This document shows, one piece after another, positions 3,767-63,656 of a DNA stretch of 64,000 bases; within the stretch, counting starts at the first letter, position 1; each line of letters begins with the position of its first letter. This stretch comes from an uncultured Mediterraneibacter sp. (lineage in GTDB: Bacteria > Bacillota > Clostridia > Lachnospirales > Lachnospiraceae). Position numbers and translations under genes: made by a program. The stretch covers positions 3,991 through 67,990 of the forward strand of contig NZ_CAKRDI010000017.1 in assembly GCF_934309415.1 (NCBI RefSeq), read 5' to 3'. The notes below the pieces were generated by a model. The model was not told the origin of the DNA and searched no databases. It saw only the letters and a list, made by a program, of their open reading frames with translations.

Positions 3767-3909
3767 GTTACTGTTCACAGCATAGCTGCAAACAGTAACG
3801 CATCTCGCCATTCAGAATCGTCTGCGACGATGGGCGAGATGCATTCAGGCCAAAACGTGCATCCTCATAGCTAATCAGCAAAGTGATTAGCTATGGTCTG
3901 AACAGTAAC
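3767..3909 (+). mobile_element. A-family palindromic element, copy 1 (subtype 1)
   Basis: 143 bp from GTTACTGTTCA to TGAACAGTAAC. It contains three internal hairpins: a first using the 5' terminus and AAACAGTAAC, a central one with arms GCATCTCGCC/GGCGAGATGC, and a third with arms CATAGCTAATCA/TGATTAGCTATG. It is flanked by the direct repeat GAATTATA (3759-3766 and 3910-3917), read as a target-site duplication. By eye it is identical to the copy at 52629 and, in reverse, to that at 31913. Confidence 0.9.
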
Positions 3910-4502
3910 GAATTATAATTACTGTTCACAGCATAGTTGCAAAAAGATTTTAGTTTTTCATCCAGATGATTTCTTACAATATAATCAAAAACATATTCCG
4001 GCACATAAGATTTCCATTCCTGTCCCTTTACAATCCGCTCACGTACATCGCTTCCGCTGATTCCTTTCTGCTCCAGCGGCACATCCCACAATACTTCTAT
4101 GTCACATCCGATTTCTTCTAACTTCTTTCTTTTCTCATATCCCCACTCATCATATGTTGTCATATAATATTTTGCATGTCTTGGTGCATAATTAAAAATC
4201 AGTTCCGGATAGTTAATTGGAAACGGAACAATATCAAATTCTTCCGGGTTCACGCCAAGTTCAAGTAATGTTCCCTTAATCATCTGATATCTTTCATAAT
4301 AAGAAAACGGATTTGCTTTCGCAGTGGATCTATGTGGATTTTCTTCTGAATATTTGGTCAACTCCGGATCCGGATTGCAGATTCCAATTACAAGTTGCTC
4401 GCATCTTTCTTTTGCAGCCATAATATATTTTACATGATCCTTATGAAGCAGTTGAAATCTACCATGTACTACTCCTGTTGAAGCTTTTCTTTTTTCACTC
4501 AT
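3891..4502 (-). CDS. NMN adenylyltransferase-like nucleotidyltransferase, C-terminus altered by repeats
   Basis: A 203-aa cytidylyltransferase-fold protein. It has the nucleotide-binding motif GRFQLLHKDH near residue 14 (family GRFQPxHxGH, with Asp replacing the middle Gly) and the C-terminal phosphate-binding motif ISGSDVRERI near 148, the pattern of archaeal-type NadM/NMN adenylyltransferases making NAD+. Substrate is inferred only. Odd feature: about the last 17 codons (from CNYAVNSNYNS) lie in A-family repeat sequence, and the stop codon is inside the full A element, so the native C-terminus was probably lost. The start is an ATG followed by MSEKRKAS; a GTG or ATG further upstream is not suggested. 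Likely still functional because the catalytic motifs are upstream of the change. Confidence 0.75.
   Translation of the reverse strand: MSEKRKASTGVVHGRFQLLHKDHVKYIMAAKERCEQLVIGICNPDPELTKYSEENPHRSTAKANPFSYYERYQMIKGTLLELGVNPEEFDIVPFPINYPELIFNYAPRHAKYYMTTYDEWGYEKRKKLEEIGCDIEVLWDVPLEQKGISGSDVRERIVKGQEWKSYVPEYVFDYIVRNHLDEKLKSFCNYAVNSNYNSLLFRP
3915..3945 (+). repeat. A-family fragment
   Basis: ATTACTGTTCACAGCATAG followed by a diverged tail. This is an older A-element end. The complete copy at 3767-3909 lies beside it, so the neighbouring gene's 3' end was hit at least twice. It is read in frame as the last residues of the adjacent adenylyltransferase-like gene. Confidence 0.75.
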
Positions 4503-9203: not shown

Positions 9204-10490
9204 ATGAGCCAGAAGAAAAACCTTTCTGACATGTTTGATGATGATTTCGAAGTTACATATGAAGAAGAACCGCGAGTTTCACTGAACGATTCCGACCATG
9301 CAGAAAACACGCAGCGTTTTGGACAGACCCGTGTTTTCAATGGGAATTCATCTTCTGATACCATTGTTATGGACAGTCCATATCATGCATCCGATCATGG
9401 AAACGATGATTATAACAACACTTCTAATAATCGGTATGATCATGATTACACCGATGACTATGACGATGATTATGATAACCGATACGATAATAATTATAAC
9501 GATGGTTACGGTGATCGGTACGATGACGATTACGACGATGATTATGATGACCGGTATGATGACGACTACGACGATGATTATGATGACCGGTATGATGACA
9601 ACTACGACGATGATTACGATAACCGGTATGATGACGACTATGACGATGATTACGATGACCGGTATGATGACGACTATGATGATGATTACGATGATCGTTA
9701 TAATCGTCGCAATACCAGCAATAGCCGCCGTTCCGGTTCATCCGACCGTCGCGGCAATCAAAGAAACAGTCGTCAGGACGACTCATATGATGATCGCAGA
9801 AGCAGCCGCCAGAATGATCCATACGACGACCGCAGAAACAACCGTCAGGATGATCCATACGGAAATCGCAGAAATAATTCCAGTAACCGAAACAATCGCT
9901 ACAATGACCGTTATGATGACCGCTACGATAATGACCGTGGCAGCCGGAAATCAAAGAAACGCAGACGTGGCGGAGGCGGAGTTCCGCTTGCAGCTCCGAT
10001 CAAACAGGGGGGAAAGGCATTATCACACCTTACCAGTATCCTGCTGCAGCAGTTGTCTGTCATTCTGATCATCGTTACTACTGCTTATGTGCTTTATAAT
10101 TTCTGGCGCGCAAGCACACCTTACGGAGATATTGCAGAGGCGATCAAGACACAGAAAATTTCAAGAACACTTGCTGCTTATGTAAGTGTGGCAGGCATTT
10201 ACCTTTTCTGTGAATTTATTTCCCTGTTATGGACGATGACCCGTGTACGTGTAAGAAACGGAATGGATACCTGGCGCGAAGATACCGGTCGAGGATTTCT
10301 TTCCTTTATCATGGTCTTCGTAATTTCCTATATCTGTTTTCTGTTCAGCCCACTGCTGCCGGACTCTCCTGATATCGTTTATGGAGTCAAAGGAGCATTG
10401 GATGTATATGGTTCGCTTCACAACGGATTGCTCGGACTGTGTGCCGCAGGTGCAGTTTCCTGCCTGATCAGACGATATAAAAGTCACTAA
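9204..10490 (+). CDS. Asp/Tyr-rich repeat protein with C-terminal membrane domain
   Basis: A 428-aa protein in three parts. Residues 1-100 are acidic and disordered-looking. Residues 105-164 are five tandem 12-residue units of the form RYDDDYDDDYDD. Residues 165-250 are rich in Arg, Asn and Gln with (D/N)DPYDDRRN-like repeats and end in a basic patch KSKKRRRGGGG. About residues 270-428 contain four hydrophobic segments. The domain order suggests a cytoplasmic charged tail on a small membrane domain. I do not recognise the family. The ATG is preceded by AGTGAGGGATC. An A element is inserted at its stop codon. Possible roles (scaffold, condensate former, metal binding) are speculation. Confidence 0.8.
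   Translation: MSQKKNLSDMFDDDFEVTYEEEPRVSLNDSDHAENTQRFGQTRVFNGNSSSDTIVMDSPYHASDHGNDDYNNTSNNRYDHDYTDDYDDDYDNRYDNNYNDGYGDRYDDDYDDDYDDRYDDDYDDDYDDRYDDNYDDDYDNRYDDDYDDDYDDRYDDDYDDDYDDRYNRRNTSNSRRSGSSDRRGNQRNSRQDDSYDDRRSSRQNDPYDDRRNNRQDDPYGNRRNNSSNRNNRYNDRYDDRYDNDRGSRKSKKRRRGGGGVPLAAPIKQGGKALSHLTSILLQQLSVILIIVTTAYVLYNFWRASTPYGDIAEAIKTQKISRTLAAYVSVAGIYLFCEFISLLWTMTRVRVRNGMDTWREDTGRGFLSFIMVFVISYICFLFSPLLPDSPDIVYGVKGALDVYGSLHNGLLGLCAAGAVSCLIRRYKSH
9516..9695 (+). repeat. five 36-bp tandem coding repeats
   Basis: Five in-frame 36-bp units beginning with the Arg codon CGG and encoding RYDDDYDDDYDD (single changes D-to-N in units 3 and 4). The units differ at synonymous sites (GAC/GAT, TAC/TAT), so the array is not brand new. 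Copy number is expected to vary between strains by slippage. Confidence 0.85.
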
Positions 10491-10493
10491 ATT

Positions 10494-10636
10494 GTTACTG
10501 TTCACTCCCATGTCAATCACTCCGCTGATTGGCATGGAGGATGCACGTTTTGTCCTGAATGTATCTCGCCCATCGCCGTAGGCGATTCTAAATGGCGAGA
10601 TACGTTACTGTTTGCAGGTTACCTGTGAACAGTAAC
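10494..10636 (-). mobile_element. A-family palindromic element, copy 2 (subtype 2)
   Basis: 143 bp with GTTACTGTTCA/TGAACAGTAAC ends, reading in reverse relative to copy 1. It is flanked by the perfect direct repeat ACTAAATT (10486-10493 and 10637-10644). The duplicated target contains the TAA stop of the upstream gene. Central hairpin arms are GTATCTCGCC/GGCGAGATAC, and the third hairpin is CATGTCAATCA/TGATTGGCATG. Confidence 0.9.
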
Positions 10637-18197: not shown

Positions 18198-18452
18198 ATG
18201 TTAGCAGTTAAAAGTATGGATGTCAGAGACAATTTTAAAGCGTTATGTGATAAAGTTTTTAAAGGTGAGACATTGATTGTTTCAAGACCCAAAAATGAAA
18301 ACATCGTTATGATGTCAGAAACTGAATACAATAATATTATGAAAGCAAAAAGAAATGCTGAATATCTCGCCATGTTAGACAACTCTATGGCTGAAGCAGA
18401 AGCAGGCGGTTTCATCACTAAAACACTTGACGAATTAGGAGATTATGAATAA
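18198..18452 (+). CDS. type II antitoxin, Phd/YefM family
   Basis: An 84-aa antitoxin: an N-terminal DNA-binding Phd/YefM fold (MLAVKSMDVRDNFKALCDKV) with IVSRPKNENIVMMSETEYNN, then an acidic C-terminal tail that wraps the toxin. I start at the ATG at 18198, which has AGAGG at good spacing; the in-frame GTG at 18189 lies inside that site. The stop overlaps the toxin ATG (TAATGA), the usual coupling. It neutralises the YoeB-type toxin and with it should repress the promoter at 18120. Confidence 0.92.
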   Translation: MLAVKSMDVRDNFKALCDKVFKGETLIVSRPKNENIVMMSETEYNNIMKAKRNAEYLAMLDNSMAEAEAGGFITKTLDELGDYE

Positions 18453-18712
18453 TGAATATCGTATTTACTCCTACTTCTTGGAAGCAATATACTGACTGGC
18501 AAAAAGAAGATAAAAAAATAGTCAAACGAATTAATGAACTTATCAAAAGTATAGATCGTGATGGATTATTAAATGGTATCGGTAAGCCGGAACCCTTAAA
18601 GCATAGAAAAGCATGCAGCAGACGAATAAATGATGAACACAGGCTTATTTACAACTTTGACACGAATCAGAATCTTATTATATATTCTTGCAAATTCCAC
18701 TATGAAGATTAG
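18452..18712 (+). CDS. yoeB: type II toxin, YoeB/Txe family mRNA interferase
   Basis: An 86-aa ribosome-dependent endoribonuclease of the YoeB/RelE superfamily. Family landmarks are SWKQYTDWQKEDKK near residue 9, LLNGIGKPEPLKH near 38, RRINDEHRLIYNF near 57 and the C-terminal FHYED, containing the Glu, Arg, His and Tyr positions used for mRNA cleavage in YoeB. Length is typical. It is translationally coupled to the antitoxin and followed by its own terminator. Confidence 0.93.
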   Translation: MNIVFTPTSWKQYTDWQKEDKKIVKRINELIKSIDRDGLLNGIGKPEPLKHRKACSRRINDEHRLIYNFDTNQNLIIYSCKFHYED

Positions 18713-18740
18713 CACCTATTAAAAGGGTGCTTTTCTTTTA
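18711..18740 (+). terminator. intrinsic terminator after yoeB
   Basis: Stem AGCACC/GGGTGCT overlapping the toxin stop codon, followed by TTTTCTTTT. Confidence 0.8.
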
Positions 18741-18876: not shown

Positions 18877-19887
18877 TTAGAATTTACCAGCCTTTGCAGC
18901 TTCCTCTACGGCTACTGCTACAGCAACTGTCATACCTACCATCGGGTTGTTACCTGCTCCGATAAGACCCATCATCTCTACGTGAGCCGGTACAGATGAA
19001 GATCCAGCGAACTGTGCATCAGAGTGCATACGTCCCATTGTATCTGTCATACCGTAAGAAGCCGGTCCTGCTGCCATGTTGTCCGGGTGAAGTGTACGTC
19101 CTGTACCACCACCTGAAGCAACTGAGAAGTATTTCTTTCCAGCTTCAAGACGCTCTTTCTTATATGTTCCTGCTACTGGGTGCTGGAATCTTGTCGGGTT
19201 TGTAGAGTTACCTGTGATAGATACGTCTACGTTCTCTTTCCACATGATCTTAACACCTTCTACTACGTCGTTAGCTCCGTAGCAGTTAACTTTCGCACGA
19301 AGTCCATCAGAGTAAGCCTTGCGGAATACTTCTTTGAGTTCTCCTGTGTGATAGTCAAGCTCTGTCTCAACATATGTAAATCCGTTGATACGTGCAATGA
19401 TCTGAGCAGCGTCTTTTCCAAGACCGTTCAGGATAACACGAAGAGGTTTCTGACGAACTTTGTTTGCTTTCTCAGCGATACCGATTGCACCCTCTGCTGC
19501 TGCGAATGACTCGTGACCAGCCAGGAATGCGAAGCACTCTGTATCTTCTTCAAGAAGCATCTTTCCAAGGTTACCATGTCCAAGACCAACTTTTCTCTGG
19601 TCTGCAACAGAACCCGGGATACAGAAAGACTGAAGTCCTTCACCGATAGCTGCTGCTGCCTCAGATGCTTTTTTGCATCCTTTCTTGATTGCGATAGCTG
19701 CACCTACTGTGTAAGCCCATTTTGCGTTTTCGAAACAGATTGGCTGAATGCCTTCGATCATCTTGTAAACGTCAAGACCTGCTGCTTTTGTTACTTCTGC
19801 AGCTTCTTCGATGGAGTTGATTCCATACTCAGCAAGTTTAGCAAGAATCTGTTTTTCTCTTCTTTCATATGATTCAAATAATGCCAT
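18877..19887 (-). CDS. GGGtGRT protein (conserved, function unknown)
   Basis: A 336-aa cytosolic protein with the signature SGGGTGRTLHPDNMAAGPASYG near residue 252 that names this family in automated annotation. It is rich in glycine and alanine and contains conserved GLGHGNLGKMLLEED near 101 and FLAGHESFAAAEGAIG near 120. No catalytic domain can be assigned. It follows the NifU-like gene by 14 bp, and that pairing is typical, suggesting an iron-sulfur or redox-linked role (inference). A 3' fragment of a second, diverged copy exists at 27905-28129. Confidence 0.88.
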   Translation of the reverse strand: MALFESYERREKQILAKLAEYGINSIEEAAEVTKAAGLDVYKMIEGIQPICFENAKWAYTVGAAIAIKKGCKKASEAAAAIGEGLQSFCIPGSVADQRKVGLGHGNLGKMLLEEDTECFAFLAGHESFAAAEGAIGIAEKANKVRQKPLRVILNGLGKDAAQIIARINGFTYVETELDYHTGELKEVFRKAYSDGLRAKVNCYGANDVVEGVKIMWKENVDVSITGNSTNPTRFQHPVAGTYKKERLEAGKKYFSVASGGGTGRTLHPDNMAAGPASYGMTDTMGRMHSDAQFAGSSSVPAHVEMMGLIGAGNNPMVGMTVAVAVAVEEAAKAGKF

Positions 19888-24901: not shown

Positions 24902-25780
24902 CTACTCAATATTCTGGATCTGTTCTCTGATCTTCTCGATCTCTGTCTTCAGTCCGATCGCAAGATTCGATACTTCCAGATCGTTCGCTTTCGAAAGAAT
25001 CGTATTCGCCTCACGATTCATCTCCTGTGCAATAAAATCAAGCTTGCGTCCGATCCCTTCTGTCTCTTCCAGAGTAGAACGCATATGCTGGATATGACTC
25101 TTTAGTCTCACGACCTCTTCATCTGTACAGATCTTATCTGCAAATACAATCACCTCTGCTGCGATCCTGCTGTCCTCGATCTGTGTATCCTCCAGCAGCT
25201 CTCTCATCTTTTCTTCCAGCTTGGCCCTATATTCTGCCACGATCTGCGGGGAACGTTCCTCCACAGCCGTCACCTGTTCTTCCAGAAAATCCAGCTTGGC
25301 AAGCAGGTCTTTTTTCAGATTCTCGCCCTCTGTAGTCCTTGTCTCAACAAACTGTGCAAATGCTCCTTCCAGAGCTTCTTTCAGTCCGTTCCACAGCTCT
25401 TCTTCATCTTCCGGCTGTTCTTCCATTGTAAACACTTCCGGGAAACGGGAAAGTGCTGATACATTCACATCATTCTTCAGGCCGAACTCTTCACTCATCT
25501 GCTGCAGATATTTCACATATTCTGCTGCCACTGCCGCATTATACTTCACAGATACCTGTGACTGAGATGCATCTTCGTATGTAATAAAGATATCTACTTT
25601 TCCGCGGTTTGCGTAAGATTTTAAAAGTGTCCGGATCGATGTTTCAAAAAAATTAAGTTTCTTTGGCATACGGATGTTTACATCCAGATATCTGTGATTC
25701 ACACTTTTAAGCTCTACCGTGAACTTCTTTGAATCCTTCTGGACTTCACATCTTCCAAACCCTGTCATGCTTTTGATCAT
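24902..25780 (-). CDS. YicC family endoribonuclease-like protein
   Basis: A 292-aa YicC protein. MIKSMTGFGRCEVQ at the start and VELKSVNHRYLDVNIRMPK near residue 22 are diagnostic, with the DUF1732 C-terminal part (EVVRLKSHIQHMRSTLEE, then REANTILSKAND). E. coli YicC has been reported to have RNase activity; the role in Firmicutes is less clear. I choose the second ATG (25780), nine bases from GAGGA, over the first at 25786, which is too close to it. Confidence 0.9.
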   Translation of the reverse strand: MIKSMTGFGRCEVQKDSKKFTVELKSVNHRYLDVNIRMPKKLNFFETSIRTLLKSYANRGKVDIFITYEDASQSQVSVKYNAAVAAEYVKYLQQMSEEFGLKNDVNVSALSRFPEVFTMEEQPEDEEELWNGLKEALEGAFAQFVETRTTEGENLKKDLLAKLDFLEEQVTAVEERSPQIVAEYRAKLEEKMRELLEDTQIEDSRIAAEVIVFADKICTDEEVVRLKSHIQHMRSTLEETEGIGRKLDFIAQEMNREANTILSKANDLEVSNLAIGLKTEIEKIREQIQNIE

Positions 25781-25809
25781 AGTCATTCATCCTCTGCTGT
25801 TAATTTATC

Positions 25810-25842
25810 ATTACTGTTCTCTCTCATGCAGTGAACAATAAC
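25810..25842. mobile_element. minimal A-family derivative, 33 bp
   Basis: ATTACTGTTC and GAACAATAAC separated by 13 bp, flanked by the perfect direct repeat AATTTATC (25802-25809 and 25843-25850). It keeps the ends but none of the internal hairpins and still shows a target-site duplication. Confidence 0.8.
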
Positions 25843-27904: not shown

Positions 27905-28129
27905 AATAACCCGACGGTTGGTATGACAGTGTTACTGTTCACTCCCATGTCAATCACTCCGCTGATTGGCATGGAGGATGCACGTATTGTCTTGAATGTA
28001 TCTCGCCCATCGCCAAAGGCGATTCTAAATGGCGAGATACGTTACTGTTTGCAGGGTTACCTGTGAACAGTAACTATGACAGTTACTGTAGCAGTAGCTG
28101 TAGAGGAAGCTGCAACATCTGATGGATGA
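27905..28129 (+). pseudogene. 3' remnant of a second GGGtGRT gene, split by an A element
   Basis: Bases 27905-27930 encode NNPTVGMTV and, after the A element, 28076-28129 encode MTVTVAVAVEEAATSDG and a stop. The intact gene's C-terminus reads NNPMVGMTVAVAVAVEEAAK. With the element and one copy of its duplicated target removed the frame is continuous, and over the shared 57 bases I count five differences. Upstream sequence has no further match, so only the gene's end remains. Confidence 0.8.
27931..28074 (-). mobile_element. A-family palindromic element, copy 3, inside gene remnant
   Basis: 144 bp, subtype 2. The flanking TATGACAGT is present at 27922-27930 and again at 28075-28083, and the uninterrupted coding sequence of the remnant has it only once. 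This is the clearest proof of insertion with a 9-bp duplication. Confidence 0.95.
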
Positions 28130-31912: not shown

Positions 31913-32055
31913 GTTACTGTTCAGACCATAGCTAATCACTTTGCTGATTAGCTATGAGGATGCACGTTTTGGCCTGAATGCATCTCGCCCATCGTCGCAG
32001 ACGATTCTGAATGGCGAGATGCGTTACTGTTTGCAGCTATGCTGTGAACAGTAAC
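31913..32055 (-). mobile_element. A-family palindromic element, copy 4 (subtype 1)
   Basis: 143 bp, the exact reverse complement of copy 1 by eye. It is flanked by the perfect direct repeat AATTAGCA (31905-31912 and 32056-32063). Confidence 0.92.
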
Positions 32056-41057: not shown

Positions 41058-41199
41058 GTTACTGTTCACAGCATAGCTGCAAACAGTAACGCATCTCGCC
41101 ATTTAGAATCGCCTACGGCGATGGGCGAGATACATTCAGGACAAAACGTGCATCCTCCATGCCAATCAGCGGAGTGATTGACATGGGAGTGAACAGTAA
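41058..41199 (+). mobile_element. A-family palindromic element, copy 5 (subtype 2)
   Basis: Full internal structure, but the right end stops at GAACAGTAA without the last C and no flanking direct repeat is visible, so this end has been altered since insertion. It lies downstream of ptsI. Confidence 0.85.
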
Positions 41200-41287
41200 A
41201 GGAAACGGGGCCACTGTCTGCAGACAGCCGCCCCGTTTCCTTTGCCGGAAGGCCAGAACATTTTCACGTTCCGTTTTTTGGTTTATT

Positions 41288-52487: not shown

Positions 52488-52628
52488 GTTACTGTTCACA
52501 GCATAGCTGCAAACAGTAACGTATCTCGCCATTTAAAATCGCCTTTGGCGATGGGCGAGATACATTCAAGACAATACGTGCATCCTCCATGTCAATCAGC
52601 GGAGTGATTGACATGGGAGTAAACAGTA
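52488..52628 (+). mobile_element. A-family element, copy 6 (subtype 2), interrupted host copy
   Basis: Left part of an A element whose last bases (AAACAGTA) are duplicated as AAACAATA after the inserted copy 7, leaving AC at 52780-52781. The whole nest is flanked by ATAAAGCAAAC (52477-52487 and 52783-52793), with one extra T on the right. Confidence 0.85.
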
Positions 52629-52771
52629 GTTACTGTTCACAGCATAGCTGCAAACAGTAACGCATCTCGCCATTCAGAATCGTCTGCGACGATGGGCGAG
52701 ATGCATTCAGGCCAAAACGTGCATCCTCATAGCTAATCAGCAAAGTGATTAGCTATGGTCTGAACAGTAAC
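52629..52771 (+). mobile_element. A-family element, copy 7 (subtype 1), nested
   Basis: 143 bp identical by eye to copy 1. It sits in the right end of copy 6, flanked by AAACAGTA (52621-52628) and AAACAATA (52772-52779), an 8-bp duplication with one mismatch. Confidence 0.9.
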
Positions 52772-56214: not shown

Positions 56215-56874
56215 TTATAACCGACTTTTATACATCGCATATCCTGAAAGCGTAAAACCATCCGTAATCCTGCCTTCCGCAATCCACTTCACCAGTTCTT
56301 TGTCTGTAAGTAATTCCATCTCCTCAATTCCTTCATAATGCAATTTCAATTGAGGTTCTGTTATCTCACATACAAATACATCCACTTCATTACTTCCAAT
56401 CCCACTGTCCGCAATCACTGTACCCACATGATTGATTTTCTTAATATCTGCGCCTGTTTCCTCTTTGATTTCCTTTTGCAGATTTTCTTCTGCTGAAAGT
56501 CCTTCCTCACCAAAGCCCCTCGGAAATGCATATTGAAATGCCCTCATAGCATGCCGGTACTGTTTTAATAACACAAATTTATCATCGTATACAGGAATAG
56601 AAACGATAGCACCTTTCTTCACTGCCGGAATCAGTCTCTCGTAAGCAAATCTCTCCCCTTTCATATTTTCAACCAGATCTACAATTAATAAATTATATGC
56701 ACTTCGATATACAACACCAATCTTTTTATCGGTGTTTCTTTCAAACTGTTGTACACTCCCATAATCCATTATAATTTGCAGTCTGTTACTGGCTTTAAAA
56801 AGTTCTGGTCGTTCCTCTGCTAAATCAAGGTACTCTCTCCACGCTTTACTATACATGCTGTTTTCATTCTCCAT
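56215..56874 (-). CDS. NUDIX hydrolase
   Basis: A 219-aa NUDIX protein that hydrolyses a nucleoside diphosphate linked to another group. The Nudix box spans GFGEEGLSAEENLQKEIKEE (from about residue 120) and continues TG; the usual Arg-Glu reads Lys-Glu but the metal-binding Glu residues remain. The N-terminal 90 residues form the dimerisation-type region of ADP-ribose pyrophosphatases. It has a close, deleted and fused paralogue at 62862. It follows the TOPRIM gene by 45 bp on the same strand, and could belong to that unit. Confidence 0.88.
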   Translation of the reverse strand: MENENSMYSKAWREYLDLAEERPELFKASNRLQIIMDYGSVQQFERNTDKKIGVVYRSAYNLLIVDLVENMKGERFAYERLIPAVKKGAIVSIPVYDDKFVLLKQYRHAMRAFQYAFPRGFGEEGLSAEENLQKEIKEETGADIKKINHVGTVIADSGIGSNEVDVFVCEITEPQLKLHYEGIEEMELLTDKELVKWIAEGRITDGFTLSGYAMYKSRL

Positions 56875-62861: not shown

Positions 62862-63596
62862 CTACATTTCCGTTATAACCGACTTTCGACTTCTATACAA
62901 CGCATATCCGGAAAGTGTAAAACCATCCGTAATCCTGCCTTCTGCAATCCACTTTATCAGCTCTTTTTCTGTAAGTAATTCAATCTCCTCAATCCCTTCA
63001 TAATGCAATTTCAATTGAGGTTCTGTTATCTCACATGCAAATACATCCACTTCATTACTTCCAATCCCACTGTCCGCGATCACCGTGCCCACATGGCTGA
63101 TTTTCTTAACATCTGCGCCTGTTTCTTCTTTGATTTCCTTCTGCAGATTTTCTCCTGCTGAAAGTCCTTCTTCTCCAAAGCCCCTCGGAAATGCATATTG
63201 GAATGCTCTCATAGCATGCCGGTACTGTTTTAATAACACAAATTTATCATCGTATACAGGAATAGACACGATAGCGCCTTTCTTCACTGCCGGAATCAGT
63301 CTCTCGTTAATCTCTCCACTCTTTACTATACATGCTGCTTTCATTCTCCATGCAGTCCTGAACCTTCCAAACTGAGAAACTCTCAATGCACCACAGCGAA
63401 AAAGTCCAATCATTTCCTCATACGCTTCTTCATTCTCCAAAATACTTAAAAATGCTTCTGAATCTGTCAACTGATTAAATGAAAGCACAACCTGATTTCC
63501 ATTCATCACTATTTCTTCAAAAAGAGCCTGCTGCCCTTTTATGATTTCCGCTTTAGAATTTCTGACAGAATCTAATTCGAATAAATATACAAGCAT
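62862..63596 (-). CDS. chimeric protein: 480-aa-family N-terminal domain fused to truncated NUDIX
   Basis: A 244-aa open frame. Residues 1-80 (MLVYLFELDSVRNSKAEIIK to GALRVSQFGRFRTA) match the N-terminal domain of the protein at 59893. From about residue 96 (ERLIPAVKKGAIVSIPVYDD) to the end it matches the NUDIX protein at 56215, including the Nudix box. The 14 or so residues between read the beginning of a NUDIX gene out of frame: the - strand from 63351 still encodes MENESSMYSKEWRD then a stop. So the NUDIX gene lost an internal piece (about codons 15-80), which shifted the frame and fused the two. ATG at 63596 has GGGGGAA upstream. Function unproven. Confidence 0.8.
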   Translation of the reverse strand: MLVYLFELDSVRNSKAEIIKGQQALFEEIVMNGNQVVLSFNQLTDSEAFLSILENEEAYEEMIGLFRCGALRVSQFGRFRTAWRMKAACIVKSGEINERLIPAVKKGAIVSIPVYDDKFVLLKQYRHAMRAFQYAFPRGFGEEGLSAGENLQKEIKEETGADVKKISHVGTVIADSGIGSNEVDVFACEITEPQLKLHYEGIEEIELLTEKELIKWIAEGRITDGFTLSGYALYRSRKSVITEM

Positions 63597-63656
63597 TTTT
63601 AATTCCCCCTTCAAATTATTTGTATTATTCTACTTTAACATATCTAAGTTCTCTCA

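Follow-up and report, generated by a model that had tools for sequence, protein, structure and literature searches.

The stretch of DNA analysed in this study (the window, 64,000 nucleotides) is part of a Lachnospiraceae chromosome close to Mediterraneibacter; among the matches listed, the NFACT-like protein encoded in it shares at most 85% identity with its counterparts in 'Candidatus Mediterraneibacter norfolkensis' and kin. The window contains an intact GGGtGRT gene and, at a distance of about 8 kb and in the opposite orientation, a fragment of a GGGtGRT 3' end. This fragment is located between two genes, one of which we take to encode an NFACT-like protein and the other presumably a lipoprotein-like protein, and it is split by a 144-bp insert that carries the same short sequence on both sides. 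This arrangement, which had been described in the first-pass annotation, was confirmed by direct reading of the sequence (Table 1). We know of no function for GGGtGRT.

Table 1. Positions of the interrupted GGGtGRT fragment, the inserted element and its other copies in the window, and the full-length relative
Feature	Position	Strand	Basis or remark
Left part of GGGtGRT 3'-end fragment, from codon 313 (NNPTVGMTV)	27905..27930	+	Sequence and alignment; read as a probable att-site scar
Target repeat, copy 1, TATGACAGT	27922..27930	not assigned	
144-bp palindromic non-autonomous element (MITE) with IS66-type ends	27931..28074	+	
Left terminal inverted repeat, GTTACTGTTCAC	27931..27942	+	
Internal hairpin A	27942..27976	+	Fold of the 27931 copy; both-side changes at 5 of its pairs (18-copy alignment)
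Internal hairpin B	27998..28040	+	Fold of the 27931 copy; present also in the consensus fold
Terminal hairpin C, itself bearing both end types	28041..28074	+	Fold of the 27931 copy
Right terminal inverted repeat, GTGAACAGTAAC	28063..28074	+	
Target repeat, copy 2, TATGACAGT	28075..28083	not assigned	
Right part of GGGtGRT 3'-end fragment, to about codon 331	28076..28115	+	Sequence and alignment
Intact GGGtGRT gene, uninterrupted counterpart	18877..19887	-	
Further element copy, repeat GAATTATA	3767..3909	-	
Further element copy, repeat ACTAAATT	10494..10636	+	
Further element copy, repeat AATTAGCA	31913..32055	+	
Further element copy without target repeat	41058..41200	-	
Two element copies, one nested in the other's end, repeats AAACAGTA / AAACAATA (7/8)	52488..52771	-	
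Full-length IS66-like element	L143:46-2403		

After removal of one target repeat and the 144-bp insert, 60 of 69 bases in the remaining stretch match the 3' end of the intact GGGtGRT gene in the window (E = 1e-20), and the joined flanks gave a local alignment score of 93, whereas 1000 dinucleotide shuffles scored no higher than 32. In 10-base bins, the identity is 8-10/10 from codon 313 across 60 bases and at most 6/10 outside this range. The flanking match is therefore significant and real, not a product of chance, yet it spans only ~58 bp (codons 313-331); the gene remnant proposed in the first-pass annotation holds as far as homology is concerned but is not gene-sized. No in-frame start codon is present upstream of the fragment. 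On its right side, the frame resumes at 28076 (MTVTVAVAVEEAATSDG) and runs, beyond 28115, into a foreign tail, TSDG, followed by a stop codon (28127-28129), such that the 3' side of the fragment ends before the stop codon of the gene, unlike the other stand-alone ends compared. The closest match of the fragment is the window's own GGGtGRT gene (52/57), with 51/57 for the gene of genome G030. Five codons of the fragment are altered, three of them silently. The intact gene also provides the uninterrupted sequence for the before/after comparison that had been drawn within the window; this counterpart is, however, a paralogous sequence and not a true empty site.

The GTTACTG/CAGTAAC ends assigned to the insert were borne out as perfect 12-bp inverted repeats. 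Folded alone, the element forms three hairpins and is 10 standard deviations above shuffled sequences in stability. In the consensus fold of 18 copies, hairpin C is replaced by pairing between the left and right ends of the element. The 18-copy alignment contains pairing-preserving changes on both sides at 8 of the 45 predicted pairs, a number that counts sequences and not events, because the aligned copies are related.

The left terminal sequence, with up to two mismatches, occurs 41 times in the window, compared with a mean of 4.2 in shuffled sequences. When we retained only copies with two ends, hairpin B motifs and flanks of 12 bases and merged overlapping loci, 34 distinct copies were obtained, 7 in the window and 27 in G030. 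These copies read 141-145 bp, below the size required for a 100-amino acid ORF. Their target repeats match at 8/8 bases in 19 copies, 7/8 in 8, 6/8 in 2 and 9/9 in 2, and are absent from 3, and none of 1,122 mispaired flanks reached 7/8. The usual target-repeat length of the family is thus 8 bp, and 9 bp is less common: the 9-bp duplication claimed for the 27931 copy is present, but only one other copy (L094) shares this length.

The 8-bp repeats at most copies, the nested insertion at 52488-52771 and a full-length relative with the same ends (see below) together support the claim that the family has been mobile. The family is a collection of past transposition events, and the description of the 27931 copy as caught in the act of inserting is overstated, as its insertion also lies in the past. 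Two further observations were made in the window. The copy at 3767-3909 overlaps the 3' end of the ORF at 3891-4502, and this copy, together with its target repeat, seems to supply the last codons of the ORF. At 25810-25842, 24 bp upstream of the ORF at 24902-25786, lies a 33-bp miniature that has the same type of inverted ends and is accompanied by an 8-bp direct repeat (AATTTATC).

In a search of 58 genomes of the genus (E <= 0.001), the element was matched in a single genome, G030, which contains at least 38 matches (41 rows minus 3 for genes; the scoring of G030 covered part of 93 candidates). Partial matches were found in G017 and G020 among 24 genomes. The element was not matched in Rfam, against which the window was searched at the gathering score, nor in the plasmid and phage searches. 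A second short family is present in G030 (L088:1812-1953), with GTAACTGTTCAGAGCC ends and an exact 8-bp repeat; these ends resemble the end beside a further IS66 remnant, L131.

The full-length relative was found in the genus-mates G064 and G027. It is 2358 bp in length, starts with GTTACTGTTCACACCC and finishes with TGAACAGTAAC (CTGAACAGTAAC), and it is flanked in both genomes by an 8/8 target repeat, GCCGGAAT; the neighbouring sequence is the same in the two genomes, so that both copies possibly represent one event. The element contains an upstream frame of 95 codons (89 amino acids as scanned), which had no match in Pfam and NCBIfam, and a 567-codon frame. The product of the latter scored 90.5 bits against PF03050 (cut-off, 23.1) and remained below the NCBIfam IS66 equivalog cut-off (162 versus 180 bits). 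IS66 elements may encode the accessory proteins TnpA and TnpB; single-gene subgroups exist within the family. The transposase shares D, D and E residues, which we take to be the catalytic triad, with the IS66 proteins L126, L127 and L130. Relatives without a target repeat are also carried by G011 and G060, and the frame of the latter is broken.

The short and full-length elements have only their ends in common, and their interiors show no clear similarity. At the left end, 15 of the first 16 bases are identical; at the right end, the identity extends over 11-14 bases, with TGAACAGTAAC exact and the maximum of 14 bases seen between the G060 element and some of the short copies. A remnant of the same transposase adjoins a GTTACTGTTCA end in G030, the genome rich in short copies. 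The window itself gave no trace of such an enzyme when searched with five IS66-type proteins (two of the full-length kind and three others; best E, 0.18). The IS66 transposases of G017, G007 and G003 were also considered as parents and were rejected, as convincing GTTACTGTTCA ends are absent nearby.

It is known that the ends of IS66 elements begin with GTAA and that their target repeats are 8 bp in length. Palindromic MITEs and repeat families with several internal hairpins are likewise a known category. The element at 27931 is an IS66-type short non-autonomous element, a known sort of element, and judging from the full-length element, it is or was probably moved in trans by an IS66-like enzyme. 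The full-length element resembles the IS66 family in its DDE transposase with a PF03050 domain, inverted ends and 8-bp target repeat, and differs from it in its ends, which begin with GTTACTG, in the sub-cut-off NCBIfam score and in that the short element matches the full one at the ends alone. The short element resembles palindromic bacterial MITEs in its small size, many copies and several hairpins, but differs in that the window is unmatched in Rfam and the element is found in 1 of the 58 genus genomes. Alternatively, another transposase, of a different 8-bp-repeat family or IS66 lineage, may move the short element, and the shared ends would then be convergent. The brevity of these shared ends is in line with this view, as is a further IS66-type transposase of G030 (C4:344-1177, with one internal stop), which lies close to a contig edge and the ends of which were searched for and were not identifiable. 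Furthermore, the available passages of PMC12888890 give GTAAGCG or GTAACCG, and not GTTACTG, as IS66 ends; these passages concern other elements. However, the end sequence, the 8-bp repeat and the genus are all the same for the short and full-length elements, and G030 retains the transposase remnant beside a GTTACTGTTCA end; this alternative is improbable in our judgement. Through its link to the full-length element, a short, many-copy repeat family of Lachnospiraceae gains a likely transposase and a target-repeat length.

To clarify what was interrupted, we examined GGGtGRT 3' ends in other genomes. Prophages and other elements with a tyrosine integrase are known that integrate into the 3' end of a protein gene and restore the gene. 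In G032, the intact GGGtGRT gene is followed, after 154 bp, by a 442-codon integrase frame (PF00589) and prophage-like genes; 84,869 bp further on, the gene end recurs on the same strand, with a 55-bp exact direct repeat. The gene end and its distal copy are a predicted attL/attR pair. In G004, an integrase gene follows the GGGtGRT gene, and a second 3' end is found on a different contig, where an aldo/keto-reductase-like gene comes after it; by eye, such a gene lies downstream of GGGtGRT in L003 and L009, and this gene order implies that an integrated element lies between the two ends of G004. The GGGtGRT gene of G004 (L157:5265-6151), which is situated beside the integrated element, lacks about residues 265-303. 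G225, G232 and G283 also have stand-alone ends, and in each of them the intact gene is immediately followed by a PF00589 integrase. Thus, in all five genomes in which we found a stand-alone end that is not at a contig edge (G004, G032, G225, G232 and G283), a PF00589 integrase adjoins the intact gene.

Among the 10 IMG/VR contigs with the motif, 5 bear a stand-alone end (about 140 bp from an integrase in L162), and the other 5 contain the gene body or break off within the gene. In a phage collection, none of the five records with the motif has a stand-alone end; all either continue into the body of the gene or stop within it where the record ends. When the 10 stand-alone ends (the five genomes above and L162, L163, L165, L167 and L168) were compared, 8 were found to start at codon 312/313, where they are joined leftward to other DNA, and the remaining 2, which are beside a shorter, 310-residue type of integrase, start near codon 300-303. 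The number of independent events is below 10, as the flanks indicate the same prophage type in G032/L163/L165 and in G232/L168. Further integrases are located downstream of the gene in L012, L013, L164 and L171 (within 0.2 kb) and in L015 (0.8 kb); G012 and G015, to which L012 and L015 belong, show a single GGGtGRT 3'-end match among the matches listed. Eleven integrases were scanned with Pfam, 6 of which are among 75 downstream ORFs; all 75 were screened with two integrase queries (2 matches), such that the occupancy of the site is a lower bound. From these sequence arrangements, the stand-alone GGGtGRT 3' ends elsewhere look like integrase att sites.

At the corresponding place in the genus-mates G030 and G038, the gap between the NFACT-like and lipoprotein-like genes contains neither the GGGtGRT fragment nor the element: the stop codons of the two genes are about 130 bp apart in G030, and 168 bp separate the matched stretches in G038 (in G037, the NFACT side alone was matched). 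As both genomes lack both sequences, they are unable to date the insertion. Each of them has one GGGtGRT match. Among the matches listed, 80 NFACT-like loci were available, of which 24 show a GGGtGRT 3' end, once each; none of the 80 has a credible second 3' end in a test that detects both halves of the window fragment, and the DNA after the NFACT match was read in 18 of them. A small-ORF pair, presumably a toxin-antitoxin pair, is present at 18199-18713, directly downstream of the window's GGGtGRT gene, on the side where elements integrate elsewhere, and G030 carries different DNA at this position.

In the genus, GGGtGRT was matched in 52 of the 58 genomes, with stand-alone 3' ends in G004 and G032; this count leaves out a contig-edge piece in G026, and the gene is split over contig edges in several genomes. 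In a family-level sample, 282 of the 348 genomes were matched, and at least 8 have two matches among the matches listed. The genomes opened were these two-match ones, which comprise three with stand-alone ends, two with intact divergent homologues (G153 and G229; 67 and 71% in the 3' region searched), two with distant long proteins and one with a contig-edge piece.

The best explanation of the locus, to which we assign a probability of roughly 0.6, consists of two superimposed events: the fragment would be an orphaned att scar that was later hit by the IS66-end element moved in trans. Prophages or integrative elements of the family would use a tyrosine integrase at the GGGtGRT 3' end and carry a copy of it, mostly from codon 312/313. 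At this secondary place in the window, an element of this sort or its attP may once have resided and have since been lost; the 144-bp palindromic element would then have entered the scar, duplicating 9 bp, with an IS66-like DDE transposase presumably acting in trans on its inverted ends. The att origin is suggested by the start of the fragment at codon 313, which coincides with the 312/313 border of 8 of the 10 other ends, together with the absence of the rest of the gene and the absence of the fragment from G030 and G038. Several findings run against it. No integrase trace was detected in the window (tblastn with 10 integrases; best E, 0.29), and the window would be the sole orphan, as the five other genomes with stand-alone ends all keep the integrase; G012 and G015, conversely, have an integrase yet a single end among the matches listed. 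The inverted orientation, the 3' side falling short of the stop codon and the window's own gene as the closest match also speak against an att scar. The window's GGGtGRT gene is not a direct-repeat partner of the fragment, being inverted; because of this orientation, we discarded the possibility of a far att site belonging to that gene, and only an off-site scar is claimed. The flanks of the fragment gave chance-level matches only when compared with phages, and no exact copy of the fragment in uninterrupted form was found in IMG/VR. The TSDG tail with its stop codon was considered as an element-supplied tail, which it resembles, and was given no weight because it could easily have arisen by chance.

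Alternatively, the fragment may have arisen without an integrase, as a small duplication of the 3' end of the GGGtGRT gene in the window (by template switching or insertion of a gene fragment), and the element would later have been inserted into it. Such a duplication would account for the 52/57 match to the window's own gene, the missing integrase trace, the inverted orientation and the right border, which differs from those of the stand-alone ends in other genomes. It would, however, have to start at random near the codon 312/313 border, for which by our estimate roughly 7 of the 1008 gene positions would qualify, and we regard it as rather unlikely. The first-pass annotation had instead concluded that the host lost a second GGGtGRT gene through the insertion. 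Intact second homologues do exist in G153 and G229, and the silent changes at three of the five codons also speak for this reading; but about 19 codons are left, neither gene-sized homology nor a start codon was found, the left border of the fragment is the common att border, and the known paralogues are far more divergent than the fragment. In addition, the gap in G030 and G038 is empty of GGGtGRT, each of these genomes has one match to it, and the 80 listed NFACT-like loci provide no credible second 3' end. The gene-loss claim is accordingly not supported, and an inactivated second gene is improbable. A story of gene loss is thereby replaced by one of mobile elements, with the att scar as the preferred reading of the fragment.

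The observations in other genomes indicate GGGtGRT as a docking site for prophages and integrative elements. More broadly, the GGGtGRT 3' end may be a family-wide hot spot for at least two groups of tyrosine integrases (borders at codons ~300-303 and 312-313), of which the window would hold an off-site attP-like copy that can be split or flipped; we put this forward tentatively, and the odds seem to us rather unfavourable. If it were true, the off-site copy would lie inverted ~8 kb from the intact site and would since have been split by the IS66-type element, and the 18.9-28.1 kb segment could be inverted by recombination or by an integrase that enters the cell. The elements in other genomes resemble known tyrosine-integrase elements in the direct repeat of a gene 3' end at both borders and in the integrase beside the intact gene; they differ in that the target is the GGGtGRT gene, and the window in that it holds an isolated off-site piece without an integrase. 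R. gnavus presumably belongs to the same genus as the source of the window. Its phage phiRgPS6 is similar in being a temperate phage of a genus-mate host, but according to the available passages of PMC10072058, its attB is a 21-bp intergenic site and related prophages are predicted at tRNA genes; GGGtGRT is absent from the text of that paper. An excerpt of PMC10434189 lists GGGtGRT in the iron-dependent stimulon of B. thetaiotaomicron, and the GGGtGRT passages of PMC10434189 and PMC9942572 are unrelated to integration. Although GGGtGRT as an integration site is not described in the literature searched, such integration would again be behaviour of a known type.

Some minor observations were also made. 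In the prophage region of G032, a 21-bp stretch (L155:12644-12664) matches the DNA to the right of the fragment (95%, E = 0.003), which may be due to chance. By eye, the ORFs at 62862-63614 and 56215-56874 share a nearly identical C-terminal half, which we take to be NUDIX-like, and the former ORF looks like a fusion with the N-terminus of another protein. The ORF at 9204-10490 contains a long D/Y/R-rich repeat run.
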